Under the pieces are notes generated by a model. It was not told the DNA's origin, ran no database searches, and worked only from the letters and a program-made list of their open reading frames with translations. The position numbers and the translations under genes are program-made. A stretch of DNA of 30,138 nt from a virus: the IMG/VR virus record IMGVR_UViG_3300020174_001390, positions 1 to 30,138 of that record; one strand, given 5' to 3'. The first letter of the stretch is position 1; each line of letters starts with the position of its first letter. This document shows, piece after piece, positions 3,779-23,261 of the stretch.

Positions 3779-3782
3779 TTTT

Positions 3783-3786
3783 TCCT
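3783..3786 (-). promoter_or_regulatory. Ribosome binding site of the hub-like gene
   Basis: AGGA on the minus strand, four bases before the ATG at 3778. It lies in the 12-bp gap after the TAG of the preceding gene. A second in-frame TAG (3785-3787) overlaps it, so the upstream reading frame is closed twice before this start. Confidence 0.6.
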
Positions 3787-3790
3787 AATC

Positions 3791-4573
3791 CTATCTGTAT
3801 GGACTACTGTTATTAGTAGAATATTTGTAATCTGCTAAGAATTTTATGTAAACCGCAGCGTTTAAAGGTTCAAATGGTATATAATGTATGTAGGGGGTGA
3901 ATATATCTTGTATCAGAGTGTCTCTTTGTACCGGAACATAATCCCTAATTTGCCTAATCTTTCCTTTTGCAATCTCTACCTCAAGAGTTCTTTCAGCATT
4001 GCTATATTGACTTTGAGATAGTCTATCTCTGTTTAATCTATTTCCATATATGTCCTCCCACCCATTTATACCACTGCCTGCCTCAAAGAATGTTTTATCA
4101 TAATGAAGTATGCCGCTTTGTTTTACTGCGTGGCTTAATTCCCATTTAGATTCTGGATATGTTAAGTATACGCCAGACTTGGTTCCTATTCCATTACTAT
4201 CACTCTGGAGAAGAACCCACTCTGTAAACTCTGTTGGGTCTGAAGGGACACTTCCAAACTTATCTTCAAAATAAGTTCTTAGATGCTCAAAATCACCGCT
4301 AGGATAATATGCGTTTATACCAGAGGGACCAGTACCCTCAGTCCAAACGCGCTCGTCGTAAGAATGAGACTGAGAAGTATCAAAAAAATTCGCCTCGCCA
4401 GAAGGAAGTAGACCACCCGAACCATTAGGATACGGTTGTGTATCGTCCGTTCCTCCGTACATAGCATGAACCCCATCGCCATGCAAAGGAACTTTATATT
4501 CTCTTTGGTAGTCAATGGGTTGTTCATTGTTAGGGGTCTTGTTTGGACCATATTTTGTTGAATTATATGTCAT
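3791..4573 (-). CDS. Hypothetical phage protein, 260 aa
   Basis: I do not recognise this family. I place the start at the ATG at 4573, giving 260 residues beginning MTYNSTKYGPNK, rather than 33 bp further upstream at 4606. The 4573 start has AGGGG five bases upstream and begins 8 bp after the preceding stop, while the 4606 start would overlap the preceding gene and add an uncharacteristic basic leader. The protein is rich in Gly, Ser, Tyr and Pro in its first half. It becomes more regular in its last 70 residues, with an Arg/Lys-rich helix-like stretch followed by aromatic strands ending in YKYSTNNSSPYR. No signal peptide or membrane segment is visible. It ends in TAG, and the next gene starts 12 bp later in the same frame. 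Position between likely tail proteins suggests a small baseplate or tail-tip component, by context only. Confidence 0.7.
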   Translation of the reverse strand: MTYNSTKYGPNKTPNNEQPIDYQREYKVPLHGDGVHAMYGGTDDTQPYPNGSGGLLPSGEANFFDTSQSHSYDERVWTEGTGPSGINAYYPSGDFEHLRTYFEDKFGSVPSDPTEFTEWVLLQSDSNGIGTKSGVYLTYPESKWELSHAVKQSGILHYDKTFFEAGSGINGWEDIYGNRLNRDRLSQSQYSNAERTLEVEIAKGKIRQIRDYVPVQRDTLIQDIFTPYIHYIPFEPLNAAVYIKFLADYKYSTNNSSPYR

Positions 4574-4578
4574 ACTAA

Positions 4579-4583
4579 CCCCT
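4579..4583 (-). promoter_or_regulatory. Ribosome binding site that decides the start of the 260-aa gene
   Basis: AGGGG on the minus strand, five bases before the ATG at 4573. It overlaps the TAG stop (4582-4584) of the 627-residue gene, so the stop and the Shine-Dalgarno share bases. This arrangement favours translational coupling and argues against the longer start at 4606. Confidence 0.75.
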
Positions 4584-6465
4584 ACTGATCTAATTCGTAA
4601 GTCCAAGAAATATTTAAACTATATTGACCTTCTTTGGGATTCCAGCTTTCTGAGGGTGGTGATATAAAATATTTTCTAATTCCATATTCATTTGCTGGAC
4701 TCATCTCTATAATAAGTTCATGTAACTGTTGTGCCATTGGTTGAACAATGCTAGGTTTTTTAAGTAACAGTGGATTTCTTTCTTTTCCGTATGGGACTTT
4801 CGTATAGTCCAAGGTAAGATTAATAGATAGATCTCTTCTATATTCTGTTCTTGTTCCCATGTATTGAAGAACGGGTCCAGTCGCCCTACCTAAAACGGGG
4901 ATGGTAGCAAAAACATCTCCGGGATATGTATCATTTACGCTAATGGTTTCACTCAATACCCCAGATATTATATTGGTAGGTCTATTGTCAAAAGATAAAC
5001 TATAATTTATTTCACCAGTAAATTCATTTACACCAAGTGTGATGCTTTTTGGTTGTGAATTAAGGGCAACCGCAACACTATTATTAGCGCGTTTATAAAG
5101 ATCACAACCTATTCCGAACCTACCGCTATTAGAAACCTGATTGTATTTACCTATAGCGTGAGTATATGCAGTTTTTTCAGATAGTGGAGAAATTTGATCG
5201 TAGCGACTATATTGTTGATAACCACTTGGAGAAATGTCTGCAAGACCCTTAATAGTTCCATTCATGCTAACGCTAACAAATGGATTATCAGTGCTGGAAC
5301 TTATATCTAATGTATAGTTTTCATAAGAGTTCCCGCTGGCCAATAAAAACGTTTCGGTACAACTGTAACTACCTGCTCCCTTGTCTATATTCTCGGTTCT
5401 AGAGTGATTATAACCTCTATACTGTGGAATTAAATTAAAAATTCCTGTACCAAGAAGACCGGGGGCATTGGGGTAAACGCCGCTAACATTACCCCTGTGA
5501 TTATCTGTATTTGTATCGTCTTTTAATATTGCAGCATCGGCATCGTGTATTAATCTACCTTGAACAAACTTTTTAGCTTCATACCATGCATCCGTCTTAA
5601 CAACTTGAGGGTTTTCAACATCTCCCGTTGGTCTATAGTGACTTTTACCTGTCGCGCTTAAATTGTGTGTAACCCTGTATGTTTTAGGTAAAAATGGATC
5701 AACACTTTCAGGTTGTGCGTCGTCTTCTTCAATAGACCAAGACTCACTATAATCTTGAATAAATGCACCACTTAAAGCGCCTACTAGTTCTGCTTCTTTT
5801 ATTCCGGTTCCCGTGAACTTTATATTTTGATAATCCTGTGGGAGAAAAATGCCAGAATTACCATCATGACATGAATTAGAATATAATGTTGATATTTCTT
5901 CAAGGTTAAGTAAATTATCTAAAAGTGTATCTGCTTCCAAGGTGATAGTATAATCACAAGTATCTACGTATATACCTTCAGTGAAAGATATATTTGTAAC
6001 CCTTGGAAAACAAACAATACTAACCTCTTCTGTCTCGTCGTCCCAGTCGCTTATTTCTAACTTTTGACCGTCCAAAGCAAATAGGGCTTTTAGTGATGCC
6101 TGTTTAGATAAGATAGCATCTAGAGCATTTCTTATGTCAATACTCTGTTTTGGCGGCGTGGGGCGTGGGTTTCCTATATCATGACCTATTATTCTATCAA
6201 AAGCCTCATATGGACCGCAATAAATCAGCGTTGGGGGATTTCCGAATGGAGCGATGGGATATTTAGGATTTCCGTCCGTTTTCTTAAATGCATATGGTGT
6301 ACCCTGATCGGCAATTAATTTTCCAGTCAGAGTGATACTGTAAGTAACACCGTAAGCATCTCCAGCGCCAGTCTTTAAGATATTGGTATCTATTGTAACC
6401 AACGGTGTTGGCCTAATTGTACAGATTTGATCTGATATATTTTTATATAGAACTTTTACTGGCAT
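4582..6465 (-). CDS. Putative tail/baseplate structural protein, 627 aa, unknown fold
   Basis: The ATG at 6465 shares its A with the TAA of the giant gene (TAATG), and AAAGGG sits six bases upstream, inside that gene's last codons. The product is soluble-looking and beta-rich, with no signal peptide or membrane span. Residues 1-200 alternate strands such as VTYSITLTGKL with a helical segment around residues 105-130 (RNALDAILSKQASLKALF), then CDYTITLEADTLL. The C-terminal 250 residues contain long beta stretches: NYTLDISSS, VSVSMNGTIKG, GEINYSLSFDNRP, then IPVLGRATGPVLQYMGT and RRDLSINLTLDYT. The motif 'G-x-I-x-Y-S-x-S-F-D-N-R-P' followed by 'IPVLGR-x-x-GPVLQ' looks like a conserved signature of a phage structural family, but I cannot name it. 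Its place between the giant adhesin-like gene and a hub-like gene suggests a tail-tip or baseplate part. Confidence 0.7.
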   Translation of the reverse strand: MPVKVLYKNISDQICTIRPTPLVTIDTNILKTGAGDAYGVTYSITLTGKLIADQGTPYAFKKTDGNPKYPIAPFGNPPTLIYCGPYEAFDRIIGHDIGNPRPTPPKQSIDIRNALDAILSKQASLKALFALDGQKLEISDWDDETEEVSIVCFPRVTNISFTEGIYVDTCDYTITLEADTLLDNLLNLEEISTLYSNSCHDGNSGIFLPQDYQNIKFTGTGIKEAELVGALSGAFIQDYSESWSIEEDDAQPESVDPFLPKTYRVTHNLSATGKSHYRPTGDVENPQVVKTDAWYEAKKFVQGRLIHDADAAILKDDTNTDNHRGNVSGVYPNAPGLLGTGIFNLIPQYRGYNHSRTENIDKGAGSYSCTETFLLASGNSYENYTLDISSSTDNPFVSVSMNGTIKGLADISPSGYQQYSRYDQISPLSEKTAYTHAIGKYNQVSNSGRFGIGCDLYKRANNSVAVALNSQPKSITLGVNEFTGEINYSLSFDNRPTNIISGVLSETISVNDTYPGDVFATIPVLGRATGPVLQYMGTRTEYRRDLSINLTLDYTKVPYGKERNPLLLKKPSIVQPMAQQLHELIIEMSPANEYGIRKYFISPPSESWNPKEGQYSLNISWTYELDQ

Positions 6466-9400
6466 TACTTACCCTTTGTCCTGAATTTTAATGATTTTTC
6501 AATTCCACCAATACCACTGGTAACAAAACCTAGTGAATTATTAATTATCACGGGTTCTCCATCGTAAAGATATCTATATACCTCAGATGATACTATTCCT
6601 TCATCATTATTATACACAAATAAAGGCATCACAGCGCTTGCTTCTGGAGGTTTACCTATAGTAAACATTTGTAAATTATCGTCAGTTTCAGTTCCAGAAA
6701 TATACTCTCCGTAAATAGATTCAACGTATGGTCTCTGTGAGACAAACCCCTTGTCAGCTGGATCATACCCAGAAACTTCTAGGAATATAGACCCTTCTGG
6801 GGAGGTATTGATGATACCGCTAACTCTATATGTTATAGAACTTCCCTCGCTATTTTGGTAGAATAATCCAGAAACCGAACCATATCTCTGCTCACCCACG
6901 GTATCTCCGTAAACGGTAGGCATGATGTAGCTTTCTTGACTTGGTATAGCATTTGGTTGATGTCTTAGCATTGCGTCATATGTATAAGCAGAACCGGCAC
7001 CAGATATCTCTATGGAGAAATGATTACCGCTAGTTGGGAACTTATGTTGAGGAGAACCAACAATCATTACGTAGTCACTGTCTGAACGGCGCGCTTGATG
7101 CAATGCCACGGAATAACCAAACATATCATTTTCACAACCGCTCGTTGCGGACAGTTCTGTATTTCTGTCGCTAAAACCTTGCGCAACAATCTTTTGTGCA
7201 AAATTCCAAGTTTTGTTTCTATCTTGGTAATTATCAACATCGTGCCTAAAGGTGTAAACTGCACCATTATTTAAAACCATCTGACCGCTTCCGGGGTACT
7301 GATCTCTTACAGTTCCGTCGCCTAGATCGTACATCTCATGCGTAGGAATATCAAATTCATAATTAAATTCTTTTCTGATAAATGCTGCGGAACCACTGTA
7401 AATATGGTTATGTAAAGTTTCATAATCATGGGCAGGAGCGCCAACCGCAATAAAATCAGATTCAACGGAAACCGACCAACCAAACATATCTGGAACCCAA
7501 CCAAATGCTTGAGCAAAATCATCTGGAAGGTTGTGATTACCTTTCAGGGTTGTCAAGTCACTAGCAGTAGCATTATCAATTCCAACATTTAGACTATCGG
7601 AAGGTTTGATTTTCTGCTTGTACTCCCAAGGTAAAAATTCTTTAATAGCATTTTCACCACGACCCGTTCTTTCAAAGTAGAACGCTGCACCAGCACCACC
7701 TCTACCACTTAGGTTAAGACCAGAACCAACATCTCCAGCATTGTATGTTTCTATAATTCCAGACCAAGACACAACATCTTCGTCGTGATAAGCATTGAAC
7801 GGAGTGCCTATAACTAGTTTATTTTTATAAATATCAACAGAGAATCCGAACAAATCTCCCGGATAACCAGAATATAATACATCATAATCTAGATAATCTT
7901 TACCTGTTCTCTCCATGAACTTGGACACTCCACCGTTCATATTTGAGTCTACCCAGTGATTTACTTCTCCCACTTGATCGTCATAGAAATTACCGCTGAA
8001 TCTTGGATATGTTCCATATTCAGGTACTACGTCTACACCGAATCTTTCGATTTCTTGGTCAATCTTAATTTTCTCAAATGGTGAGAATCTTCTAAATACA
8101 TCCCCTAAAACAAAATTATCTTCTTGATCTGTGTAGTTTTCAACCTGACCGGCAGCGCCTGTTTGACCAAATTTTTCAACTAGCAACTGATTTCCAGAAT
8201 TTGCAAAGTATTTGGATGGACTTCCTTTTTCTGGGGCTCTTAGTTTCTGGGTAAATTCAAATTTAGTACCTTTCTTAGAAATTAGTGCGTCTTGATCCGA
8301 AGAGAAATACGATTTATCAGGACTTTCAGGATAAAGACTTCTAATAAATCTAACATTAGGACTGGTTACGTCATATCTGTAATGGTCGTTAAATCCTTGT
8401 ATCATAGATGAGTCTGTAACAAGAACTATTCTTGATCTTCTATTTCCAGTAGAGAAGTCGCTGAAGTGTTCTAGTTCGTCAGCAACAATCACTGGGCCGT
8501 CTTCAACATCTAGTTCTGGATCATATTCACTACATATGAGCGCGTCAGGATCGCAGTACTTGACATGATTTGTTGAAATGGGTCTAAACAAAGGCGGTAC
8601 AGTAATTTCTCTTTCAGGAGTAAACCACGGAACGCCAGAACATTCTGTAATGTAAATTTTCTTTTCTTTGGTCTTAGTTGTCTCATGATATGTTTCAATG
8701 ATTGGCAGAGGATATCCATAAACACCCAATATTCTTGGTGTATACGGTCTATCTCCAGCAATGTCTTCAGACTTGATAGTTCTCCATTGATTTGTATCAA
8801 ATTTAACAGTTATAGAATTTTTACCATCTTTAACCCTGAAGTCAACAGCATGTCTATTTGAGATAAACTTTGTAGTTTTACCAAGGTCTTTTGGTGAATC
8901 AGGACTGTAACCCTCACCTTCTGGATCAGCAGAGAACGATACATCCTCACCATCAATTTGGAATGTAATATCATACAGTTCATTATCTGTCTCAGATATC
9001 CAATCAACAAAGAGTCTATAACCAGAAGTAGGTATAACGGGGAACTGAATAGATGCATCTCCATCTATTCTCCAGTATGTATCAGGGGTTGACCAAACCT
9101 TATCAAATACTGGGTCGTTCATCTCTACAACAACGCTAGTTCTAGAACCTCCAACCTTGATTGGTATGTAAGCATAACCATCATAACCGTCTGATTGTGG
9201 GTCTCCAGCAACCTCACTATCATTCAAAGTAAGCGGACTTGCGGTATTAGGTATTGCTGAGAGTTTATCTATTTTTGTGGAAATAGTATTATTCAAGTCC
9301 ATTCCTGTCCACTTGTAACCACTATCACAACCCTTGATAACGGGATTAGATTCATCTAGAATCTGTAATCTATCTGGCCCAACGGCATCAACTGGACAGC

Positions 9401-12400
9401 AAGAACTCAAGGCAGAATTCTTTAGAACTTCTGTGTCTTGAACATAGTATTTCGCTTGGTTTGTCAAGAAAAATGGTCTTGTCTCCATACCAAATCTTTC
9501 TAGAGTCAAGTCTACATTCGTTGCAATTTGCTGATCTCTATTGTAGGTTATGATAAGTTTTTTGTTTCCAAGTTTCATCCAGTTCTTGATTGGTTGAACG
9601 TAATTTACTGGAATTGCTTGCTCTGGATTTGCAATCCATATTACGGTCACGGAGTCTGGAATAATAGAACCTTCATTGTAAATAACATTTGTATTTATGA
9701 TATGGTTATAATTCTCTAGACTGGTTTTTATAACAGAATCTTCAAACGCATCTACAAAAGAGGTTTTTCCGGTCCAACCGCCTAGTTGAGCAATTCTAGC
9801 ACGATTGCTACAATCTGTCATAACTAGATTATTATAGAAAGCGATGTTCTGGTCATTGTTTCTTGGGTCGTACTCATCGCCAAACCTTGCTCCCATACTC
9901 CAAGCGTTTTCAGGAAGTTGAGAAGCGATCAAGTAAACCTTGGATGACTCTTCTTCTTCAAACAATTCTTCAGTAACGTATGGTGAAGTATCCGCAACCT
10001 TAACTGTTTGCAAGAAAGACTGACCGGCATAGTCTGTTCCAACACCTTGTAGTATAGCATCTCTTCCGTTTTCTTTTTGTGGATTAGCAAATTTATCTCT
10101 GTTGAAGGAAGTGTATGTTCCAACAGCTTGATTGCCACTATCTATTAAGTTAAATTGAAGGTCATTGAGGTGATCTTCTGCGAAATCGTAGGTAGTAGTG
10201 CCAGTAGTAATTGTTGTCTTAATAATTCCAGACAGTGAAGTTGTACATTTTTCTTCTTCTCCGCTGGCAGCAGGAATAATAATAGATTTTTGTGGTACAT
10301 ATTCGGCAGCAGTAAGAACAGGTGTTATCTCTTCGTCAGGTCTTACAACATAAGGTTTAACAATCTGCGGATAGAACTTACAACTTTGACCCGGATTTGC
10401 GGTATCAAAATGGAACGCCCAGTTTGTATAGAATTCTATTTTATCAAAACATGCAGATGCCCACTCCGAACGTAAATCTCCAGAGTGCTGAATTGGAGGA
10501 ATACATCTATCCAACTCTGGATTATTTGGATCGCAAGGTGAATATAGTTTAAGAGATTCTAACCCTAAGTCAGATAGGTCAATCTTAATGTCTGCTACAC
10601 CACTGGCGTACATATTTTCTCTTATGGCATCTGACTCGTGCATGTATTGAGGTAAGTGGGCAAGTGTAACATTAAACTTACCATCTAGTATTTCACTTTG
10701 ACTCATACCAGCAATCAAAGATTCTTTTTGGTTTCTAGCGGCGGTAATGCGCATCCTAGAACCTAACTTTCTTAGAATCTTATTAATAATCTCGTTAGAC
10801 TTTCTGTAAATACCACCCTGTTTCCATTTTGGATCATTACCAACAAGAACCAAGGTTCTATCTCCAAGCGCAAGCCAAGATTTAATATTATCTATTATCT
10901 CGTCACTTGCCGCATCCAACTCTGGAGTTATAATAAATGCAAGACCAGCATCTTTAGGTATTTCAATTTCATCAAACTGAGTTCTTTCAAACGAGATGTT
11001 ATCTACCGCAAAGTACGAACCGAGTTTTTCGTAGGCATTTACTACCCCTTGATTTGCTAAATTCTCTGCATTAACAGATCTATCTAGGTTTCCAAATTTA
11101 TAAAATTCAACAGTTTTATTGTGACTATGGTAAGACCTAGACTCAAAAATTCTAACCGCACCGGCGTTGGTGTAAGATGCCCACGTATTGTTTTCTGGAT
11201 AGTTCGCGCCAGTAACGCCGCCATACCAAACATTCATGTCGTCAAATTCATTGAACGAATCTGTAGGTGCGCCAAACGCGACGGTTTTTCCGTCTTCACT
11301 AACGGACGTACTAAACCCAAGTCTAGAAGTACCCGCGAACTCGTAAGGGATTATATTAAACGATCCGGTATATTGAATATCGGTGTAGTGATATTTGTAT
11401 ATCTTATCGTATAGTTTAATGTTCTTGTTCTTTCTAAGCAAGAATCTATCCTTCTTGCTCATTTCTTTATAAACCTGTGTTCCAACCTCTATCTTTCCAG
11501 AACCAGCAATCAACTCATTGTATCTGTCAATTAAATCTTGAAGTGGATAGGCATACTCGTCGTTAGTTTCTACCAACCAATCGTAAACAGAGTTATACAT
11601 CAATGTATTAGCATCTTCATCTCTCTCAAAGATTTGACATGCCTCTGCGGAATAAGGAGACCCAACAGAAATGATATTGCAGTTTTCACTAATACCAACT
11701 GAGTGGCCGTATCTATCAACTGGATTTCTTTCTGCGTATATCAAGTCAGAGTTTTGATCGTCATATGCAGGTTCGTAATCTTCCAGAGGAGAAACAAACT
11801 CTTGAACGAGGTTCCACTCTCCAAACTCTTTCTCGAATACAAATACTCTACCGCCAGACTCAGGTGGCATCTGGAACTCGCCAGCATCATCTCTTGCGTA
11901 CTCTTGACCAATACCCTCAGTAATATATTTTAGATTGTTAGTTTTTATGAGATTGCCAGTAGATAATGTTTCGTTCATCAGGTTGATAGTTGCTTCGTTC
12001 CAAACAAAAGCATCATCGAAAATTTGCTCTACATAACCACGGGTAGGAACATCTGCTACCATATCTCTTACGCCACTTGCGTAAGCATACTCTTCATAGT
12101 AATCTACAAAACCATCTAAAATTTCCAAGAAAGATTGTTTATTATGAGTTGAGAATGTGTCGTCACCAAATACGCCAACAATAGGAGGTATACCACTGTA
12201 TATATTATTATTGTGTGGGAAGATTTGGTTAAACTTATTTATAACAGTATCTAGACCTTCTGTTAATAAATCGTCACTTGACCTGCTACTATCTTTCAAG
12301 CTATTAATGTAAACATGGTTGAACCAGTATGGAGCAGCGCCCCTATTTTTTCTATAGTCTGGAACGTTTGGTAATTTATCAATATCTTCACTGTTGTATA

Positions 12401-15400: not shown

Positions 15401-18400
15401 ACTGACCCTCCCAACCTTCATGGTCGGTGTAAAGTCTAATTTTGTTGTCTGCGTGTTCACTATAAGTAACAAGAACAGAAAGTGGATATTGATATTCGTT
15501 AAATGGTATTGAGTCAATTACAGAAGCTGTGTCGCCGTAAGAGTTTTGCCCAGAAGCAAGTAGATAACCGCCAGAATATCCAACAAAGATACCCGTGTTA
15601 CTACCCTGAGTGGTAGACGCAATCAAAGTACTCTTATCGTAGAAATTGTCCTGATCTACACCTGTAGCGTTTATGTCTGGTATAAATCTTATGAAGTAGG
15701 AAAGACCGCTTGCAGGATTCACATTTGAAAACTCTGCGGTAGTCTTGTTTCCAAATCTAGCAACCCTATCGTAAGCATCTGCAATTTTACCATACATTAC
15801 ATCATTAGTATAGTTGCTACCGCCATTTGATAGAGCTGTCCAGTCTGCCGTTCTGTAACTACTTGAATAACCGGGGGCAAGAGCGCTAAACATATCCTGA
15901 TTTCTAAATCTAGCGCCAAAGTTTTCATAAACTTCTGGAGTAGCACTTGAACCATTTTCTAATAGAGTGGCGCTTTTGTTTTGCCAAGCAAACTTAGAAT
16001 TTAGAGTATTACTTGTAATATCTGAGAAATCTATCCAAGCGCTCAATAGAGGTCTTTGTAGTTTTCTGCCTCTATCATAAGCATAATTAAATTGCTTTAA
16101 GTTAAATGCTCCAAGACCTATGCCATCGACACCTCTCCATCTTCTCGCATAGTTTGTTTTGATTGTACTAGGAGTAGTGTATGCATGAGGTATATCTTCG
16201 ATTAATGATAGTGGTTGATAACCAGAACCAGCATTAAATATAAGGTCACTACTTCCCATCGGTCTTGGGTAGAAAGAACCCTCACGTCTTCCATCTTGTA
16301 TTTTTACATATTCTCCACCCTCTGTTACCATTTCTAGTCCAGCGGAAGGTCTATGCCTAACTGCTAATTCAATGCCAGCAATATTAGCACCGCTAGGTAG
16401 TGCGTAAATATCTACATAAAGTTTTTCTAGTAATGTGCTGAAATTATGCCTTCTAGATCTACCTAATTCAACGTCGTCGTCATAAGCTCTTAGTTTAATT
16501 TCATACCATCTAAAATCTGTAGAATTAACAACTGGATAATTAGATAAAGCGTGGTGATCTCCACCGTCATTATTTGTAGAATTTGACTCAAAGTATTGTA
16601 TCTTATCTGATATTGATTCGGCGGAAATTCCAAGATCGTTAATTTCGCTAAATCCAGAGGATAACGGTATTGTACCTTGTGGGTAGTATTCGTCAATAGA
16701 CTCTGTTGAGTAATTATATATAAATTCGCCAGATACATTTTGCAAGAACCCGCCGACCCTAGATGTTCTATTCATTATACAGTCGTCGCTGTAACCAACG
16801 ATGTCAAGTGAATAATCTCTAGCGTCTGTGTTTTTACTAGCTAAAACTCTAAGTACCACGCTATCAAACTCAAAGAATGAATCTTGAACTTTGTACTCTT
16901 TGTCTTCTTTGTTGTATATCTTTTGGATTGGGTCAAACCAGCGGTTGAACATAGAACCAAAAGCGCTATCGAATTGACCCGGATCATACAAGTAATAATC
17001 GTCAGAACTATCAAGACCAAATCTTAATATAAGTTTACCAGAGTCATTATATACATGGTTTGATGTAATCCAACTACCGGAAGAATCGTTACTTATTATT
17101 TCTAATAATTTAGATGCACCGTCACAATCTTCGTTTGTGTATACGTCTGAATTGTCTTGCCACAACCAACCGGATGGATTGGACAAACCCGACAATGCGG
17201 GGTGGATATTTGTGTCGAATGTATTGAATAAGAATTCTTTAGGTTTAATTATTCTTTCAAATCTCTTACCAGTTTTCTGTCCGGGAACAAAGAATCCTAC
17301 GAAGTCTTCTCTAAACGGCACAATGCGACCACTATTGTAAATCTCTATTGCAGATATTCTTAGCGTTGGGTTATAACCGCTAACGGAATAGAACGTATCA
17401 AATACCTCATCCCCACCTTGGAAATCATTGTCTATTGCCCAACCAAAGTCAAAAGCACTAGGTCTATAAGGATTGCCTCTATCTTCAGATCTAACATCAA
17501 ACGTTAGCATATAACCAGATGGTCCATCTAGGTTTGAATAACCATCTTGCCACTGATATTTTGTAGACGTGTTTAATACTGGAGCAAGAGAGTATGTTGT
17601 ATACCCCGGATCTTCTAAATATTGGTCTGAGTCACCAACAAAGTTAAAGTCTTCATATCTTATTACGGTTTCGCCGGAGGCATTTTTCAAGAAGATATTA
17701 GAGAAATAGAATTTGGGAGATATCTGTGATTCAAAATTACTCTTAGGGCCAGACAGTCTGATTCTTAGTCTACTTTCAGCAGGAGTGGTTATGGGATCTG
17801 ACAACCAGAAAGCACAAAAACCATCAAATTCTGTATTAACGGCAGACGCTTGAATATAACTAGCAGAGTCGTCAGATATAGAACCTTGCGAACTTCTATA
17901 GTCACCACCTACAAAAACACCTTCGTTAATAGAATCAAACAATATTCCTGACAATCTTGGTTGATTGCTATTATCAAGGAATAACAATCCAGACTCTTGA
18001 GCAGATATTAAACTAGGAGATAATTCGTATAAATCTATTAAGTATTGATTGTTTGTTCGACCCTGTTCGTTCACAAATAAATTGTTTCCAGATTCTCCAA
18101 CAGGGTATAGTATGTCCGTTGCGCTCCAGTCTACAAAATTTCCATGATATTTATCTAACCATCTACTGCTGATATCCGCTGCTTTGTTTAGTGTTTGAGA
18201 TAGATTAAACTCCATTGTCCCTCTTCGTGATATGAGTTCTCCAATCATATCAAGTTGAGAATGAGGCCCTAAATCTAAATTAGCAAAACACTTGGAAAAA
18301 GAACCATCTACAAACAAGTACTGATTCAGATCTCTAGGTGGATTTTCATCCCCAACCACAAAGAAATTGCTTGCAAATATATTAATATTTGTTTGCGTAT

Positions 18401-21400
18401 CTTCTTCGATAAACTCATAAGGATTTACTGGAACTTTTACATCATCTAATGAAAGTTCATTATTATAGGTTGGTCTTTCAGAACCTCCAAAGGTTTTTGT
18501 GTATGTCACCCTTGGTCTTTTAGTATAAAAACAAAACTTTAACTGCGCATCTAAAATACACTCTGAATCAATTATTCTACCACAATCGTCAGTATAATTA
18601 ATATTTGTGCAAAACTCTTTAATTGGTATGTCTAGATAGGTACTATCATAAAACTCTAATTCAAACTCATTGCCTTTAGCAGAATTGATGTCATATCTAT
18701 ATGTATCATATCTAAAAGCAAGTTTTCTATGATTAGCAAGTTTAAATATTTCATTTCTAGAGAGTAGTCTGTTAAATACCCTAACGTCATCTAAAATCTG
18801 TTTCTTCTGCGCAGAGTTTAAACCGAATCCGCCAATGTAACTTTTTTCAGTAGAAACTACAAAATCTTGTATATTCTGGGATTTAAATGTTTCGTGAAGT
18901 TCACCGGCGATGTATAGTTTAAGGTATTTTTCTTCCGTGTCAAATAATAGTGCAAAGTGAAATAATTCGTCAAATTGTAATGACGTTATGCTCAACTTTT
19001 TAAAGGAATGAGAAAATCCAGTGCTAGTATCTGTAAATTTAAGTTTAACATCTCTACCCGTCTGAGTGGGTTGAGAAAGAATATTGATGTTATATTTTCC
19101 CCATCTAATAATTTTGTCTTCTGTGGATCTTTCGTCTACGTCAGACCAAAACGCAAAGGTCATTTTTGCACTAGTAGATCTATCGCCAATAGCCATAGAT
19201 TGATATTCGCCGTATTTCTTAGGTGTGTTATTATTAAACAGTATGTCATCTTTCGTTAAGACAAACTGAGAGTATTCACCAGATTTTTGGATACTAGAGT
19301 TGAAGTGCGATATATAAGATTCACCAAGATAATCATAGTCGTGTCTTTCATCTTCCTTGGTGTAATCTACCTTGTAGACATTGTGTGCATAATGTCTGTT
19401 TTGAACAGCGTCTACATTGATAAATGCGGTAGATATAGTAGATCCTTCTTCATCCATGTGTGCAGATAAAAATCTATTAGGACTACTAAAATCTTGATCT
19501 TTATTAAAGAATGTTGGGAATGTAGGATTATCATACTGGTCAATCTTTGTAATCTGCGACCAACTTGAAGTTCCGTAACCATCTGTAAATGGTTCATAAA
19601 CATTTATACTATCTCTAGATGAAATTAAAAGTTTGTTTCCGTCTTTTGAAAGGGATACATTTTCACCAAACAGGTTTGAATATGTCCAATTATCTGAAAC
19701 GCCACTAACTTCAACGTTGTCATCTAAGAATATAAATGGAGATTGAGTAATTCTACCATTAGCATGAAACTGTTTATCTTCGTCTGAGTATTTAAATATA
19801 TTGACTTCGCCGTTATTGGTATTTACGTCTGACCCAGTGAATTTACCTGAACAGGCAGTACCAATCGCGAGCGTTGTACCGCTTGCGTCAATAGCTAAAT
19901 AATTATTAATTTTTAATCCGTAATCACCATTGATGAATGGGATTTGAGGATCATGACCCTTTGGTAATTCTACGTTCTGTATTTTTTGCCATATGTTATC
20001 TTCTTGACTGTAGTCAAAAATAGCGACAGTGTTTTTCTGTTCATTTTCAAATTTACCATCAGGTTTTGCAATAATTTTTTGTATGTTTTCCTGACTGAAA
20101 ATTCTGTTTCCAGCATAGTTCATTTTTACGGTTCTGCCGAAACTAATTCTACCGTCATTCTTTGTGAATGAACCTAGTATAGTCTCTCCGAGTCTTTTCC
20201 ATTTTGATTCTCCAACAAACCTTTTGAAAACCTTTACGGAACCGGTATATGCGTTATTGAGGTAAGATTTTTTTCTATTTCCAGATACTAGAGACTCACC
20301 CCTAAAATCCAAATCAATAGAATGACCGATTCCATAATGCTCTCTTTTTCCGTAGATACCAACTGCTTCTGGTCCAACAAGTCCTACGCCATAATTTAAA
20401 TCAGGATTACCCCAAACAACAATAGAATTATCCTGACGTACAGCCATAAACCCTAACCTAGCAGAATACACGCTTAATACAGGATTTTCTGCATCAGAAA
20501 GAGATGTGTCTCCACTTGAACTTGCAACATTATTAGCAATGTCGCCTCCAAAATTTTCATGACCCCAAGCAATAACCCTGCCGGTAGAAGTAAGTGCGGC
20601 AAAAGCAAAAACAGAACTATATAATTTAGTAACTGTTTCGCCTTCTGCTAAATCAAAGTCTGGAGCATCACCGCCATACCCCTTCAATCCCCAACTGATA
20701 ACAGTACCATCTGTTTTAATCGCAGTGAACGCATGGTAATTAGGAACAACAGCGGAAACGCTTTTAAGATCTGTCTCCGTTGTAAATGAAAGATAATCAT
20801 TTTCTTCAACGTTTTCGTTTAGATTTACTACTTCTAGTAAAATTAGTTGTGACTGACCGCCATTCGTTATGGTTTCAAAATTTGCAGGACTACCATCTAT
20901 ATTTTTAACAGTAATAGTGGCGCCGTCTATGCTTATTATTTCATAGTCACCATCTCCATACTGACCACCGTCGCTATATATTCTAATGTATTTATATGTT
21001 CCGCCATCTGATAGAGGTGGTAAAAATCCATTATCAATAGTAAAAGTATTTCCAGAGAAAGAAAGTACGACGGCGCTAGTGTTATCGGTCTCAGTTATTT
21101 CAAATATATCTCTATAAGCCCTACCGCCATGAAGGGTATCTCCCCACGATACCGCAAACCCATCCTCTCTGAGTGCAGTAGACGCAAAAGCATTTGAATA
21201 AATATTAGTAAATTTACTTTTCTTGTCTGTAGATGACTGCGGTTGATCTTCCAGTTGGAAAAAGTTTGCAACTCTAACGTCGTACCTAGAAAGGTATTCG
21301 TGATCTGTGCCAGTTCTATCTGGTTGTGATGGATCAATAGACTTAAAGTTTTTGTTTAATACTTTCTCTTTCTCAGAGTTTGGTAAGTCATTGTAGTTAA

Positions 21401-23261
21401 AGTTTTCTAGTACTCTATCTATAACACCCCAAGTTGATATAGTACCGTTATTATTTATAGCAGAAAAATAATTAAGTCTTGGGTAGATATGTTTTACAGA
21501 ATTCAAATTTCCAAATTTATTCTGATTTACATCTGAACCATAAGTGGTGTTTCCCCAGCACACTACAGATGAATCTTGCTTTACGGCAGCATAAGCACCC
21601 TTGGTGGCATAAACTTTAGATATGTTAGATAATTCTACAAATGAATTTGTTACTAGTTCATCGCCATCAAATATGTACGGACTACCGCCATACTTTGATC
21701 CTGCCTCGCTAGAATAGGGGACGGCGGTATTGTCTGACTTTAACGCTACGTAAGAATTAGAGTTGGCATATATTACATCTACGGATTCTGGAGATACGGA
21801 AGTGAACTCGTTAGTCTCAGGATTAAACTGAGTTTGATTTACACCGCCCCACGTTATAATTGTCCCATCTAGAAGTACAGCGGAAAATCCGAACTCTGAA
21901 GGTGTCACATCTTTTACAGAACTTATTGTATTTTTTTGTATTCCAAATCTACCGCCAAGATTTATGTCACCCCACGTTACAATGGAGTTGTTTTCCGTGA
22001 GTGCGCAAAAAGCGTCAGAAGCTCTTAGGTCAGTTGCTATATAAACACCCAAGTCATTATCAGCAGATGCGCTGAAATTTTCAGTACTGGTGCAGAATAC
22101 TTTTTGATACCTCTCTGATTTTTCTAACGCAACTTCCTGAAATTCATCAAAGGTAAATAATGTTCTACCTATAGACACAACCTCTTCGTCTTCTCTTTTT
22201 ATCAAGAAGTTTTCTGGTGTTTTGAACTTGTCTTCTGTATAATTTCTTTGATATGAAGTAGGATTAGAAGTGCTTTTAAATCTAGGGTCATAACCGATTT
22301 GGTCAATTCTCACGTAGTTATCATCTACAGAGTTATATCGCCATATCTTTACTCTACCATTGTTAGTAAATATACTATCCTCTTCTTGATTAGATACAGC
22401 AACGGTATTTCCATCATAACTTATAGATAGACCGCCAGACAAGACCTTAACATCTCCGTCTGAGTAATCAGTATATCCTGTAGCAATCTTATAGGATAAA
22501 ACCCACTCTACTATACCATCTTTTTCTTTCTTTTTAAATATAGCTACGTAGACTTGTGGTACGGAAGGTTCATCGGCAAATGATAGGTCGTCATCTACTG
22601 CCCAGTCTGGCAATCTGCGTGCTTCTTCGCAACTTTGCGGTGGAGTTTGACTAACACCTATTTCATCAGAACCAACCATATTAAGGTAAGCAAACGCATA
22701 GGTCTTTCCGTCTTTACTTAATTTAGAGTCTAGGACTTTGGGTGTTTGAAATTCAGGCGCAACATCTAACTGAGAAATATAATACGCTAGGTCGAATTGC
22801 TTTTCGTGGTTTTTTTCTGGACCATCTGGAAAACCCCAGAACTTTTCACCTCCAAGCGGTTCCCCAAAATAAGATGGTTCTACACCAATCCTATATTCTA
22901 TCTCCGCAGAACCCTGATTTACTATAAATTCTAAATGTTCGTCGTCTATGCGTCCGTCTATTGTATTACAGTAATCATAATTATATGTATAACCATAGTT
23001 ATCTACAACGCCCGACGTAAAGCAATTTTCAATGTCTAAAGGGTCTAGCTTAATTTTATAAAGTGGTCCTTCTCCGACGGCTGATACAATGCCAATTTTT
23101 GGCAGACATTTTTTGTATCTCTTGTTTACAGGAGAACCAACCTTACCTTTAGCAAGTAGTTTTTTCCTATTACCCATCGTAATAGAGGGTTTAGCGCTAA
23201 TAACACCAACCCCTACTGGAAATGCCTTATCTGGTAAACATCCACATTTTAGTTCGATCAT
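6465..23261 (-). CDS. Giant multidomain tail-tip / adhesin-like protein, 5,598 aa
   Basis: One uninterrupted frame. The ATG at 23261 directly follows the TAA of the tape-measure gene; the next Met (residue 29) lacks a better ribosome site. Domains in order, read by eye: Cys-containing N-terminus (1-170); propeller units 1-2 (about 170-330); RCC1-like propeller, about nine repeats (415-956); propeller units 3-7 (975-1305); LamG-like domain (1360-1515); unrecognised beta-rich region (1515-2400); second lectin-like domain opening with LSAWIDFSD (2400-2700); 'LxLFI' repeats (2975-3230); Cys cluster (3374-3391); seven-unit FG-GAP propeller (3425-5430) with insertions of about 250, 90 and 1,065 residues; a tail ending in SLKFRTKGK. 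There is no transmembrane segment or cleavable signal, as expected of a virion protein. Propellers and lectin folds are typical of surface binding, and the gene sits between tape-measure and hub-like genes, so I infer a receptor-binding tail-tip or side fibre. A catalytic role is not evident. The size is far above ordinary tail fibres. Confidence 0.85.
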   Translation of the reverse strand: MIELKCGCLPDKAFPVGVGVISAKPSITMGNRKKLLAKGKVGSPVNKRYKKCLPKIGIVSAVGEGPLYKIKLDPLDIENCFTSGVVDNYGYTYNYDYCNTIDGRIDDEHLEFIVNQGSAEIEYRIGVEPSYFGEPLGGEKFWGFPDGPEKNHEKQFDLAYYISQLDVAPEFQTPKVLDSKLSKDGKTYAFAYLNMVGSDEIGVSQTPPQSCEEARRLPDWAVDDDLSFADEPSVPQVYVAIFKKKEKDGIVEWVLSYKIATGYTDYSDGDVKVLSGGLSISYDGNTVAVSNQEEDSIFTNNGRVKIWRYNSVDDNYVRIDQIGYDPRFKSTSNPTSYQRNYTEDKFKTPENFLIKREDEEVVSIGRTLFTFDEFQEVALEKSERYQKVFCTSTENFSASADNDLGVYIATDLRASDAFCALTENNSIVTWGDINLGGRFGIQKNTISSVKDVTPSEFGFSAVLLDGTIITWGGVNQTQFNPETNEFTSVSPESVDVIYANSNSYVALKSDNTAVPYSSEAGSKYGGSPYIFDGDELVTNSFVELSNISKVYATKGAYAAVKQDSSVVCWGNTTYGSDVNQNKFGNLNSVKHIYPRLNYFSAINNNGTISTWGVIDRVLENFNYNDLPNSEKEKVLNKNFKSIDPSQPDRTGTDHEYLSRYDVRVANFFQLEDQPQSSTDKKSKFTNIYSNAFASTALREDGFAVSWGDTLHGGRAYRDIFEITETDNTSAVVLSFSGNTFTIDNGFLPPLSDGGTYKYIRIYSDGGQYGDGDYEIISIDGATITVKNIDGSPANFETITNGGQSQLILLEVVNLNENVEENDYLSFTTETDLKSVSAVVPNYHAFTAIKTDGTVISWGLKGYGGDAPDFDLAEGETVTKLYSSVFAFAALTSTGRVIAWGHENFGGDIANNVASSSGDTSLSDAENPVLSVYSARLGFMAVRQDNSIVVWGNPDLNYGVGLVGPEAVGIYGKREHYGIGHSIDLDFRGESLVSGNRKKSYLNNAYTGSVKVFKRFVGESKWKRLGETILGSFTKNDGRISFGRTVKMNYAGNRIFSQENIQKIIAKPDGKFENEQKNTVAIFDYSQEDNIWQKIQNVELPKGHDPQIPFINGDYGLKINNYLAIDASGTTLAIGTACSGKFTGSDVNTNNGEVNIFKYSDEDKQFHANGRITQSPFIFLDDNVEVSGVSDNWTYSNLFGENVSLSKDGNKLLISSRDSINVYEPFTDGYGTSSWSQITKIDQYDNPTFPTFFNKDQDFSSPNRFLSAHMDEEGSTISTAFINVDAVQNRHYAHNVYKVDYTKEDERHDYDYLGESYISHFNSSIQKSGEYSQFVLTKDDILFNNNTPKKYGEYQSMAIGDRSTSAKMTFAFWSDVDERSTEDKIIRWGKYNINILSQPTQTGRDVKLKFTDTSTGFSHSFKKLSITSLQFDELFHFALLFDTEEKYLKLYIAGELHETFKSQNIQDFVVSTEKSYIGGFGLNSAQKKQILDDVRVFNRLLSRNEIFKLANHRKLAFRYDTYRYDINSAKGNEFELEFYDSTYLDIPIKEFCTNINYTDDCGRIIDSECILDAQLKFCFYTKRPRVTYTKTFGGSERPTYNNELSLDDVKVPVNPYEFIEEDTQTNINIFASNFFVVGDENPPRDLNQYLFVDGSFSKCFANLDLGPHSQLDMIGELISRRGTMEFNLSQTLNKAADISSRWLDKYHGNFVDWSATDILYPVGESGNNLFVNEQGRTNNQYLIDLYELSPSLISAQESGLLFLDNSNQPRLSGILFDSINEGVFVGGDYRSSQGSISDDSASYIQASAVNTEFDGFCAFWLSDPITTPAESRLRIRLSGPKSNFESQISPKFYFSNIFLKNASGETVIRYEDFNFVGDSDQYLEDPGYTTYSLAPVLNTSTKYQWQDGYSNLDGPSGYMLTFDVRSEDRGNPYRPSAFDFGWAIDNDFQGGDEVFDTFYSVSGYNPTLRISAIEIYNSGRIVPFREDFVGFFVPGQKTGKRFERIIKPKEFLFNTFDTNIHPALSGLSNPSGWLWQDNSDVYTNEDCDGASKLLEIISNDSSGSWITSNHVYNDSGKLILRFGLDSSDDYYLYDPGQFDSAFGSMFNRWFDPIQKIYNKEDKEYKVQDSFFEFDSVVLRVLASKNTDARDYSLDIVGYSDDCIMNRTSRVGGFLQNVSGEFIYNYSTESIDEYYPQGTIPLSSGFSEINDLGISAESISDKIQYFESNSTNNDGGDHHALSNYPVVNSTDFRWYEIKLRAYDDDVELGRSRRHNFSTLLEKLYVDIYALPSGANIAGIELAVRHRPSAGLEMVTEGGEYVKIQDGRREGSFYPRPMGSSDLIFNAGSGYQPLSLIEDIPHAYTTPSTIKTNYARRWRGVDGIGLGAFNLKQFNYAYDRGRKLQRPLLSAWIDFSDITSNTLNSKFAWQNKSATLLENGSSATPEVYENFGARFRNQDMFSALAPGYSSSYRTADWTALSNGGSNYTNDVMYGKIADAYDRVARFGNKTTAEFSNVNPASGLSYFIRFIPDINATGVDQDNFYDKSTLIASTTQGSNTGIFVGYSGGYLLASGQNSYGDTASVIDSIPFNEYQYPLSVLVTYSEHADNKIRLYTDHEGWEGQFTNLRDTSDAISLDDYNETLRFGFAGNNNTSGLPMLVTEFGFSDGLETVSGANIVNENSSLTDKQITATQFFNNIRQKFFDPNESYANDTSMLWSYVDENTSPSPSAEWYLGAFRGCDFNWQFDSINNQALGKRSYTTERDDEIIFCISHDGTSYYDSVDSDIPSTIDSGVAYHTQIENDFLRLPLSDTLDSFHAIRKRVTKSLPRGYDFGENSLVVDTVYEHISSGEFTWDCNEQVGPKLIVSLYTRNQEPYYQTDEPNWGLINRKAHYISPSSCLEKFESKFTYQDYCDDSEQWALFPEETKLSEFNEKYFSKDVDEMFLQLDLVYPSGPAFTSELSIHAIHVRAEDAIIKPEPTSGTMNLLSSGNIVENSQLELYIPAVSGIEVSDPYIGFITSGVISTEINDEIYFLTSGSYPINESIGLLTLNKRSFNTSDGDSGDGYWQSNFDFDQFIVGDGVKGLQMLTSGGTPPVPVDASGSLSMLTEGIGVSTEQINLFINNQDFGLQSTGQLTLNVFASSLGSSGTRSEMVMNLYNDAESFESFGDINSSINFNISGVETLKRRFRSKESMSLFIVAPLETKIDAAMPLILDANPEPVEESGQIGLMLRNNGVNNYLPNIPGRLNFVWDGQNYGEGIDLNDEQYASIPANDEIRGVDLFGYGDCDSDSTDKAFDQQFITDDIVWREKVCNDAGIFRATNTYTNEDAGYEDQYYGIRKYTDLKPVRPYFVSMTIKTGDTTPIPVPREWEEWEYGICGVDTTQGECCTPDCDQSLNFSGIKLIADYPYLSGDASLASEFTLDSGRQEGDKYGFSSACHGDLIAVGAPFHKILDSGNELIEDAGAVFLYRRNEEEAGKKASWYLEEKLLMPEGTRRDYIAREYGTFITYPPNLSIGGNKWAIGQEGREFGHSVDVGSVDGKEVVVVGAPGAKWTRQFPEVTTSGIPVLMTIFTDKFTYNKTKLLNIRNTAKRYDLLYKYFSKPWGVDPDIWHPELDVHLLICQVYNSEDIDKLPNVPDYRKNRGAAPYWFNHVYINSLKDSSRSSDDLLTEGLDTVINKFNQIFPHNNNIYSGIPPIVGVFGDDTFSTHNKQSFLEILDGFVDYYEEYAYASGVRDMVADVPTRGYVEQIFDDAFVWNEATINLMNETLSTGNLIKTNNLKYITEGIGQEYARDDAGEFQMPPESGGRVFVFEKEFGEWNLVQEFVSPLEDYEPAYDDQNSDLIYAERNPVDRYGHSVGISENCNIISVGSPYSAEACQIFERDEDANTLMYNSVYDWLVETNDEYAYPLQDLIDRYNELIAGSGKIEVGTQVYKEMSKKDRFLLRKNKNIKLYDKIYKYHYTDIQYTGSFNIIPYEFAGTSRLGFSTSVSEDGKTVAFGAPTDSFNEFDDMNVWYGGVTGANYPENNTWASYTNAGAVRIFESRSYHSHNKTVEFYKFGNLDRSVNAENLANQGVVNAYEKLGSYFAVDNISFERTQFDEIEIPKDAGLAFIITPELDAASDEIIDNIKSWLALGDRTLVLVGNDPKWKQGGIYRKSNEIINKILRKLGSRMRITAARNQKESLIAGMSQSEILDGKFNVTLAHLPQYMHESDAIRENMYASGVADIKIDLSDLGLESLKLYSPCDPNNPELDRCIPPIQHSGDLRSEWASACFDKIEFYTNWAFHFDTANPGQSCKFYPQIVKPYVVRPDEEITPVLTAAEYVPQKSIIIPAASGEEEKCTTSLSGIIKTTITTGTTTYDFAEDHLNDLQFNLIDSGNQAVGTYTSFNRDKFANPQKENGRDAILQGVGTDYAGQSFLQTVKVADTSPYVTEELFEEEESSKVYLIASQLPENAWSMGARFGDEYDPRNNDQNIAFYNNLVMTDCSNRARIAQLGGWTGKTSFVDAFEDSVIKTSLENYNHIINTNVIYNEGSIIPDSVTVIWIANPEQAIPVNYVQPIKNWMKLGNKKLIITYNRDQQIATNVDLTLERFGMETRPFFLTNQAKYYVQDTEVLKNSALSSCCPVDAVGPDRLQILDESNPVIKGCDSGYKWTGMDLNNTISTKIDKLSAIPNTASPLTLNDSEVAGDPQSDGYDGYAYIPIKVGGSRTSVVVEMNDPVFDKVWSTPDTYWRIDGDASIQFPVIPTSGYRLFVDWISETDNELYDITFQIDGEDVSFSADPEGEGYSPDSPKDLGKTTKFISNRHAVDFRVKDGKNSITVKFDTNQWRTIKSEDIAGDRPYTPRILGVYGYPLPIIETYHETTKTKEKKIYITECSGVPWFTPEREITVPPLFRPISTNHVKYCDPDALICSEYDPELDVEDGPVIVADELEHFSDFSTGNRRSRIVLVTDSSMIQGFNDHYRYDVTSPNVRFIRSLYPESPDKSYFSSDQDALISKKGTKFEFTQKLRAPEKGSPSKYFANSGNQLLVEKFGQTGAAGQVENYTDQEDNFVLGDVFRRFSPFEKIKIDQEIERFGVDVVPEYGTYPRFSGNFYDDQVGEVNHWVDSNMNGGVSKFMERTGKDYLDYDVLYSGYPGDLFGFSVDIYKNKLVIGTPFNAYHDEDVVSWSGIIETYNAGDVGSGLNLSGRGGAGAAFYFERTGRGENAIKEFLPWEYKQKIKPSDSLNVGIDNATASDLTTLKGNHNLPDDFAQAFGWVPDMFGWSVSVESDFIAVGAPAHDYETLHNHIYSGSAAFIRKEFNYEFDIPTHEMYDLGDGTVRDQYPGSGQMVLNNGAVYTFRHDVDNYQDRNKTWNFAQKIVAQGFSDRNTELSATSGCENDMFGYSVALHQARRSDSDYVMIVGSPQHKFPTSGNHFSIEISGAGSAYTYDAMLRHQPNAIPSQESYIMPTVYGDTVGEQRYGSVSGLFYQNSEGSSITYRVSGIINTSPEGSIFLEVSGYDPADKGFVSQRPYVESIYGEYISGTETDDNLQMFTIGKPPEASAVMPLFVYNNDEGIVSSEVYRYLYDGEPVIINNSLGFVTSGIGGIEKSLKFRTKGK
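6472..6477 (-). promoter_or_regulatory. Ribosome binding site of the 627-aa gene
   Basis: AAAGGG on the minus strand, six bases before the ATG at 6465. It is embedded in the last codons of the giant gene, whose TAA overlaps the ATG by one base. Confidence 0.65.
7880..11085 (-). other. About 1,065-residue insertion between FG-GAP units 4 and 5
   Basis: Residues about 4060-5125 of the giant protein. A segment at about 4090-4195 has the order 'strand AGLAFIITP, helix, IKSWLALG, strand TLVLVGND, then ILRKLG'. A second at about 4533-4600 repeats it: VTVIWIANP, helix, IKNWMKLG, KLIITYN, LERFGM. Both fit the Rossmann-like class I glutamine-amidotransferase-like/DUF4350 pattern. At about 4941 a strand RIVLVTDSSM resembles the C-terminal strand of such modules. 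Between the second segment and this strand is a beta-rich, carbohydrate-binding-like stretch. No Cys-His-Glu triad can be assigned, so binding or scaffolding is more likely than catalysis. Confidence 0.45.
11862..12605 (-). other. About 250-residue insertion inside FG-GAP unit 2
   Basis: Lies between the VGAPGAKW strand (ends near residue 3551) and the GGRVFVFE strand (near 3802) of the same unit. It is mixed alpha/beta, with two similar strand-helix elements: IFTDKFTYNK followed by LLNI and YDLLYKYF, and VFGDDTFSTHNK followed by FLEIL and VDYYEEY. A compact inserted domain at this place in an integrin-like propeller recalls the integrin I domain. The resemblance is positional; the D-x-T-x-S (DDTFS) is only a weak hint of a metal site. 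Confidence 0.4.
13090..13143 (-). other. Cysteine cluster before the C-terminal propeller
   Basis: Residues about 3374-3391 of the giant protein read CGVDTTQGECCTPDCDQ: four cysteines in fifteen residues, unusual for a virion protein otherwise sparse in Cys. It joins the repeat tract to the FG-GAP propeller and could bind a metal or form a disulfide-locked hinge. Confidence 0.5.
13560..14360 (-). repeat. Short 'LxLFI' beta-repeat tract
   Basis: Residues about 2975-3230 carry recurring short strands spaced roughly 20-35 residues: LELYIPA, IGLLTLN, GSLSMLTEG, INLFINNQ, LTLNVFA, MVMNLYND, MSLFIVA, MPLILDANP and IGLMLRNNG, often preceded by S-G. The same kind of unit returns near the C-terminus as VMPLFVYNN and LGFVTSGIG (nt about 6520-6640). 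Such repeats would suit an extended fibre shaft between globular domains. Repeat boundaries are approximate. Confidence 0.45.
15150..16060 (-). other. Second concanavalin/LamG-like domain of the giant protein
   Basis: Residues about 2400-2700. It opens with LSAWIDFSD and FAWQNKSA, close to the 'LxLWLDASD ... W-x-D-K-S' opening common in bacterial and viral LamG/ConA-like lectin modules. Strands SYFIRFIPD, TGIFVGYSGG, YPLSVLVTYS, KIRLYTDHEG and LRFGFAGNN follow in the expected jelly-roll order. Likely carbohydrate or surface binding. Confidence 0.55.
18720..19180 (-). other. First LamG-like domain of the giant protein
   Basis: Residues about 1360-1515. The order MTFAFWSDVDE, FHFALLFDTEEKYLKLYIAGEL, SYIGGFG, ILDDVRVFNRLLSRNEI matches the classic LamG/ConA signature 'FWF ... 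W-H-x-A-x-x-xD ... x-L-Y-x-x-G ... iGg ... G-x-lDDVriYnraLs-xEI'. The LDDVRVFNRLLSRNEI ending is especially typical. Likely sugar binding. Confidence 0.75.
19340..22745 (-). other. N-terminal seven-unit propeller, interrupted by the RCC1-like domain
   Basis: Units of the form 'S-x-D-G-x-T-x-A ... G-x-V-x-I-(W/F)-x-Y ... W' occur at about residues 174 (LSKDGKTYAFAYLN), 272 (LSISYDGNTVAVSN, GRVKIWRYN), 977 (GHSIDLDF, GSVKVFKRF), 1040 (GRTVKMNYAGN, NTVAIFDYS), 1110 (LAIDASGTTLAIGT, GEVNIFKYS), 1190 (ENVSLSKDGNKLLIS) and 1265 (MDEEGSTISTAF). Two units precede and five follow the RCC1-like block, which together make a standard seven-bladed count. Unit calls 6 and 7 are weaker. Confidence 0.5.
20395..22020 (-). 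repeat. RCC1-like repeats, about nine copies
   Basis: Residues about 415-956 repeat 'A-x-x-A-(I/V/L)-x-x-D/N-(G/N)-x-(I/V)-x-x-WG' every 40-60 residues. The WG positions are near residues 428 (IVTWGD), 470 (IITWGG), 567 (VVCWGN), 609 (ISTWGV), 704 (AVSWGD), 856 (VISWGL), 897 (VIAWGH) and 946 (IVVWGN), with a degenerate copy near 510. Several are followed by a Y/F-GG turn. A beta-rich insertion of about 110 residues separates the copies at 704 and 856. RCC1 repeats form beta-propellers; here a binding role on the virion is inferred. Confidence 0.8.

Follow-up and report, generated by a model that had tools for sequence, protein, structure and literature searches.

A 5,598-residue protein encoded beside the tape-measure gene of an uncultured tailed phage, with a conserved core and variable N-terminal arms

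Introduction

What use might a tailed phage have for a single protein of 5,598 residues? The question is raised by a virus fragment of 30,138 bases (IMG/VR record IMGVR_UViG_3300020174_001390, the whole of which is called the window below), where one open reading frame (ORF) on the minus strand predicts a product of about 628 kDa. An initial annotation, made from the letters alone, read this giant as a chain of propellers and lectins and proposed a multi-ligand tail-tip adhesin.

Results

The reading frame and its family

The ORF starts with ATG and is unbroken within the window. When the window was shuffled 200 times the stop-free runs reached 225 codons at most, as compared to the giant's 5,598, and in the remaining five frames within the gene the longest such run was 113. 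The relative G002, 5,387 aa long and encoded on a different contig, can be aligned to nearly the entire giant, collinear over residues 1–5598, with an identity of 29% in residues 1–718 and 48% from residue 826. Judged from the sequence, the single frame claimed by the initial annotation is real and coding, since more than 100 IMG/VR stretches carry a related gene, one of them collinear from end to end. The giant is not a one-off.

A query with the C-terminus first gave two relatives, and profile queries then gave 102 and 75 IMG/VR stretches. Single-chain members are usually 3.6–4.4k aa, and the window's giant is the largest seen. The closest relative seen (L171, 61% identity) has a giant that runs past the end of its contig. 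A tblastn search of INPHARED with two non-overlapping pieces covering nearly all of the giant gave no matches, and segments of the core compared with Pfam, PHROG and PDB sequences matched only the domains named below. A PHROG or INPHARED counterpart of the family and its arrangement was thus not found in the sequence searches made.

A scan of GTDB genomes gave no matches with one query (A1) and three MAG contigs with a second (A10), binned in GTDB species genomes (L244 and L245, SAR202 MAG OSU_TB57; L246, Verrucomicrobiales MAG SP5). Every gene on their 23.5-kb stretches has homologues in these phages, and one of the three is ~98.5% identical in the giant. We rejected these contigs as pointers to a host, since with phage-homologous genes only they are probably mis-binned phage DNA. 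MAG TB57 contains two different phage contigs, probably as contamination.

Gene neighbourhood

The minus-strand gene order in the window is tape measure, giant, a gene of ~600 aa, a 271-aa gene and a gene of at least 1,259 aa (Table 1). The tape-measure call comes from PF10145 in the equivalent gene of all six larger relatives checked (E 1e-24 to 1e-29), together with the GEFV motifs in the window's own copy, which is incomplete and has no PF10145 match. Its stop codon directly adjoins the ATG of the giant, and the stop of the giant overlaps the start of the ~600-aa gene by 1 nt (TAATG); these junctions suggest that the translation of the three genes may be coupled. Among 77 loci surveyed, the giant lay immediately ahead of the ~600-aa gene at every locus reaching that far, and the core evolves much as this neighbour does, with 53% as compared to 56% identity to the same relative. 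The gene of at least 1,259 aa had no Pfam or PHROG matches and no INPHARED matches by tblastn; by appearance alone, and as an impression only, its product is hub-like.

The 162-kb relative record G005 also contains a large terminase, a head protease and tail-fibre genes. This terminase has its nearest counterparts in the Bacillus phages Slash, Stahl and Staley and the Microcystis phage MaeS, and weaker ones in SPbeta-type phages. The contractile sheath PF04984 was absent from the six records searched, which are possibly incomplete, and since no sheath was found there it is likely that the phage has a long non-contractile tail. The siphophage tip proteins Dit (PF05709) and Tal (PF06605), which would have anchored a map of the tip, had no Pfam matches in the window and six relatives. 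On the contig of G002 we observed two adjoining DUF1501 genes (L012:11071-13574), an unusual cargo with ORFs of the same size at the equivalent place in G005, and a DNA polymerase III alpha in pieces (L012:3035-6921), where the PHP/NTPase and finger genes are separated by a 225-aa ORF.

Table 1. Features of the giant and of its neighbouring genes. Positions are those of the window. For the home-made HMMs the E-values refer to small sets.
Feature	Position	Strand	Basis
Tape-measure gene, cut by contig edge, 2,291+ aa	23262..30137	-	three VPA(M/L)LTPGEFV motifs; PF10145 in relatives' equivalents
Giant tail protein gene	6465..23261	-	open frame; full-length homology to 5,387-aa relative; family survey
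N-terminal cap (res 1-60), conserved in armless relatives too	23082..23261	-	N-termini compared by eye
N-terminal propeller, first part (res ~160-330)	22272..22784	-	blade HMM res 276-322, E 2.7e-9
RCC1 region within N-terminal propeller (res 400-965)	20367..22064	-	RCC1_2 1.3e-10, WD40_RLD 2e-17; eight motifs
N-terminal propeller, remaining blades (res 970-1240)	19542..20354	-	blade HMM res 1196-1238, E 2.8e-9; sub-threshold 978-1030, 1122-1160
LamG domain 1 (res 1352-1505)	18747..19208	-	Laminin_G_3 2.7e-8
Core start, mostly beta (res 1669-2400)	16062..18257	-	matched in 20/20 giants; AF2 partial confidence
LamG/ConA-like domain 2 (res ~2405-2665)	15267..16049	-	AF2 pLDDT ~70-82; Foldseek; presumed place within model
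Conserved domain (res 2700-2970)	14352..15164	-	conserved in all giants
Repeat shaft (res ~2973-3286)	13404..14345	-	'..SG.L.L..' pattern read directly from sequence
FG-GAP blade 1 (res 3420-3484)	12810..13004	-	HMM 4e-17
FG-GAP blade 2 (res 3519-3588)	12498..12707	-	HMM 5e-16
FG-GAP blade 3 (res 3841-3883), after ~250-residue insertion	11613..11741	-	HMM 1e-8
FG-GAP blade 4 (res 3974-4047)	11121..11342	-	HMM 5e-15
~1,080-residue insertion (res 4048-5130)	7872..11120	-	spacing shared by all giants compared
GldG/DUF4350-like Rossmann module 1 (res ~4090-4175)	10737..10994	-	relatives' DUF4350 matches; conservation; AF2
Rossmann-like module 2 (res ~4471-4590)	9492..9851	-	AF2 pLDDT ~90, alternating helix/strand
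Beta-sandwich, probably CBM35/CBM4-like jelly roll (res ~4708-4860)	8682..9140	-	AF2 pLDDT mostly 75-90
FG-GAP blade 5 (res 5131-5201)	7659..7871	-	HMM 1e-11
FG-GAP blade 6 (res 5256-5315)	7317..7496	-	HMM 2e-17
FG-GAP blade 7 (res 5373-5453)	6903..7145	-	HMM 2e-19
~600-aa gene (627 aa), conserved, next after giant	4582..6465	-	53-57% identity to relatives
271-aa gene	3791..4606	-	ORF
1,259+ aa gene, cut by contig edge	2..3778	-	38-40% identity to 1,580-1,811-aa relatives

The conserved core

A core of ~3,900 residues (~1669–5598) is common to all relatives, and was matched in all 20 giants compared. Two AF2 models were made, both of the core, with mean pLDDT of 68.9 and 53.8, and only their well-scored parts were used. 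The modelled LamG2 region matched LamG/ConA-type folds with a Foldseek probability of 1.00, a best E of 2e-6 and ~9–16% identity. By sequence it had no matches to Pfam, PDB sequences or the LamG1 profile, and when the LamG1 and LamG2 profiles were compared, a common ancestry found no support. A toxin reading of LamG2 was considered and rejected: the fold matches to clostridial neurotoxin binding domains reflect a shared lectin-like fold only, and no further toxin-like feature was found in the giant.

A blade HMM, trained with the window left out and giving a best reversed-sequence match of E 0.97, found exactly seven C-terminal FG-GAP blades with 2 + 2 + 3 spacing in the window and in 20 of 20 giants; some more distant relatives had five or six at the survey threshold. 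In Pfam the propeller appears as FG-GAP_2 at 1e-7 and 2e-13, with blades 1, 6 and 7 each at more than 23 bits, above the cut-off, and blade 5 at 21 bits; blades 2–4 were detected by the family HMM alone. The gaps in the spacing are insertions of ~250 residues between blades 2 and 3 and ~1,080 between blades 4 and 5. Blades 4 and 5 were not seen packed together in the AF2 model, where those ends have a pLDDT of ~30–50. The seven blades may close one ring around the insertion.

The larger insertion contains two alpha/beta modules with a pLDDT of 80–93 in AF2. In the relatives, Pfam matched DUF4350 here in 13 of 19 (best 1.9e-7) and ABC_transp_aux/GldG in 4 of 19 (best 1.1e-5); the window's own DUF4350 score, 0.021, is below the cut-off. 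Conservation within the core is highest in the first Rossmann module. The jelly roll that follows had Foldseek probabilities of 0.98–1.00 with E of only 5e-3 to 1e-2, its place within the model is presumed, and its modelled likeness to CBM35/CBM4 is suggestive.

The N-terminal arm

A long N-terminal arm is found in 7 of 69 tree members, the window and six relatives, all larger than 4.8k aa. It looks like an insertion behind the cap, since the cap resembles that of the armless relatives. The FG-GAP-type propeller of the window's arm has no Pfam matches, and since the C-terminal blade HMM also fails to recognise its blades, an HMM trained on the N-terminal blades of two relatives was needed. This found two blades in the window at ~3e-9 and two sub-threshold, with a cross-match to a C-terminal blade at 5e-4. 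Within this propeller, RCC1_2 scored 41.2 bits, above its cut-off of 22, while the full WD40_RLD model, at 64, is below its cut-off of 150; the eight RCC1-type '...WG' motifs lie at residues 417–950. Laminin_G_3 in LamG1 scored 34.6 bits against a cut-off of 27.6.

The Pfam modules of the arm differ by relative: RCC1, LamG, Calx-beta, Cadherin_5/Cadherin or Big_9. The arm label changes three times on the tree. In the first arm-bearing pair the identity is 58% in the arm as compared to 85% in the core, with dN/dS of 0.53 and 0.29, and in the second 48% as compared to 82%, with dN/dS of 0.19 and 0.06 at synonymous sites near saturation. In these two closest arm-bearing pairs the arms are, by sequence comparison, diverging faster than the cores.

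G005 encodes a separate 898-aa protein of the structural region (L055:6519-9215) with RCC1 repeats and an apparent dockerin-like motif, whereas the giant's arm of G003, which is near-identical to G005, had no Pfam RCC1 match, suggesting an exchange of modules between tail genes. In L148 the first ~110 residues of a 4,337-aa ORF (8849-21862) look, by eye, like a cupredoxin domain with a CDVHGSSM-type copper-ligand pattern; a long linker rich in Thr, Ala and Pro comes next.

Split forms of the gene

At no fewer than 13 loci the core is encoded by two genes. The break points lie just before the shaft (~residue 2973) or just after it (~3284–3288), both being module borders, and on a quickly built tree the split label requires four gains or losses. 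At L104 the gene break has a ATGAGTGA-type overlap, and a programmed frameshift may act where breaks overlap. In another locus (L127:13471-20954) the C-terminal half is apparently broken into two or more ORFs, 425 and 1,729 aa long, about 1 kb apart. The natural split forms mark where the giant could be cut for expression and structure work.

Discussion

Profile searches do find propeller and LamG matches, and the parts listed by the initial annotation are largely borne out: two FG-GAP-type propellers (the C-terminal one by Pfam and the seven-blade HMM, the N-terminal one by the relatives' blade HMM only), the RCC1-like propeller, two LamG-like domains (the second a predicted one, by fold likeness only), the repeat shaft, and the Rossmann-like modules, through the relatives' Pfam matches and AF2. 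The image of a simple string of domains did not survive, as the RCC1 region sits within the N-terminal propeller and the ~1,080-residue insertion breaks up the C-terminal one. Separate shorter products, which would have spoken against a single giant, are encoded for the core at the split loci, but in the window the frame is a single one. Concerning the multi-ligand tail-tip adhesin, the position beside the tape measure fits a tip, and adhesion would best suit the arm and the LamG/CBM-like modules, whereas the core looks structural.

We consider it reasonably likely that the giant is a scaffold and adhesin of the tail tip, with a structural core and swappable arms that would bind ligands. It would then be the chief large part of the tail tip in an uncultured phage whose tail is probably long and non-contractile. 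The shared core would form the scaffold, consisting of the LamG-type sandwich, the shaft and the seven-bladed propeller, whose blade 4–5 loop would have grown into a module with a pair of Rossmann units, both GldG/DUF4350-like, and a jelly roll. It would be held at the tip beside the end of the tape measure, together with the adjacent ~600-aa protein. The arm, an FG-GAP/WD40-like propeller with RCC1 inserted and then a LamG domain, would project from this scaffold as a swappable and faster-evolving adhesin, and together with the LamG/CBM-like modules it may bind host-surface glycans or proteins. Glycan binding is typical of LamG- and CBM-like folds. The sequences show the frame, the domains, the gene order, the conserved core, the variable arms and the gene splits; location at the tip, copy number, adhesion, ligands and the closing of the propeller around the insertion are what we infer here. 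Recognition by the arm cannot be essential to the family, since most relatives are armless, and against a role in adhesion stands that at least one of the phages has separate tail-fibre genes, which are possible alternative carriers of host recognition.

The main rival is that the giant is purely a scaffold of the tail tip or baseplate, where propellers and lectin folds join subunits and separately encoded fibres bind the host. Conservation of the core, with LamG2 and the Rossmann modules, does indeed resemble that of a structural protein, the arm is absent in most relatives, and G005 has tail-fibre genes in the same module as well as the separate protein with its own RCC1 repeats. We nevertheless find this rather unlikely, as the arms, built of recognition-type domains, are exchanged and change at a higher rate. 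The repeat shaft, the many beta domains and the huge length could also bring to mind a side tail fibre of great length that is anchored at one end and reaches outward. But conservation covers the two termini and most of the length, the gene has the tape measure on one side and a conserved tail gene on the other, and there is little repeat-fibre sequence beyond ~310 residues, which makes such a fibre improbable.

That the Rossmann modules (GldG/DUF4350, GATase-like) act as an enzyme on a surface polymer at entry seems more improbable still. The top conservation of module 1 is what would be expected for an active site, or equally for a key interface, but the module has no evident set of invariant catalytic residues (Cys or Ser/His), the invariant Cys being downstream of it, and DUF4350 is a name without an assigned activity. 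An artefact of assembly or annotation, a chimera or fused genes, could be imagined from the separate modules of arm half and core half and from the relatives that encode the core as two genes. It is refuted by the collinear 5,387-aa relative on another contig and by the many single-frame relatives of 3.6–5.4k aa, and we regard its probability as negligible.

If the scaffold and adhesin of the tail tip is the right reading, it may be carried further, although we hold this extension to be doubtful: a new class of tail tip in which one giant chain replaces a multi-protein baseplate. Such a tip would have an integrin-like propeller chassis, a GldG-type Rossmann module grafted into the ring, and nested RCC1-in-FG-GAP propellers as exchangeable ligand readers in a fixed site behind the cap, the chain being split or fused at the shaft. 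The family is widespread, yet the searches gave no PHROG and no annotated-phage match for it, and in Pfam its generic domains only; a map of conserved scaffold and swappable arm is of the kind needed for the host range of uncultured phages.

Comparison with known systems

Large phage proteins, and lectin or propeller domains in phage tails, are already known; what is new is the family, with its plug-in arms and a constant core that has a GldG-type module and an FG-GAP propeller with interruptions. The searched core segments had no sequence match to a solved structure or an INPHARED phage record. Like the seven-bladed propeller of the integrin-alpha type (FG-GAP_2, PF14312), the giant has seven FG-GAP repeats in order, and a weak profile match to integrin alpha-IIb was obtained (E ~0.95). 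Unlike the integrin propeller it is interrupted by the two insertions, and a pattern search found no integrin-like calcium DxDxDG loops in the window's blades. GldG/ABC_transp_aux and DUF4350 (GATase-like) are from bacterial membrane-associated proteins, and it is these families that the insertion module matches by sequence, in 13 of 19 relatives for DUF4350; a literature search gave no paper tying DUF4350 to a phage tail.

Huge phages are described as encoding giant proteins of up to 7,694 aa, some tentatively structural (PMC7162821). These and the window's giant are both phage-encoded and are likened by description alone, the relevant part of that source giving no domain-level account. Among phage receptor-binding proteins with propellers are phi11 Gp45 (5-bladed), PRD1 P2 and phiKZ gp131C (7-bladed) (PMC4901313); as in the giant the propeller is in a tail or host-recognition protein, but each of these chains has one propeller domain. 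Laminin_G_3 lectin domains occur in tail proteins of jumbo phages, on fibres and other virion components (PMC7824862), and in both cases a ConA fold is part of a tail-region protein, in the giant inside a chain of more than 3,600 residues. By analogy, the propellers and LamG domains of the giant would have their precedents in phage host-recognition proteins (PMC4901313, PMC7824862).
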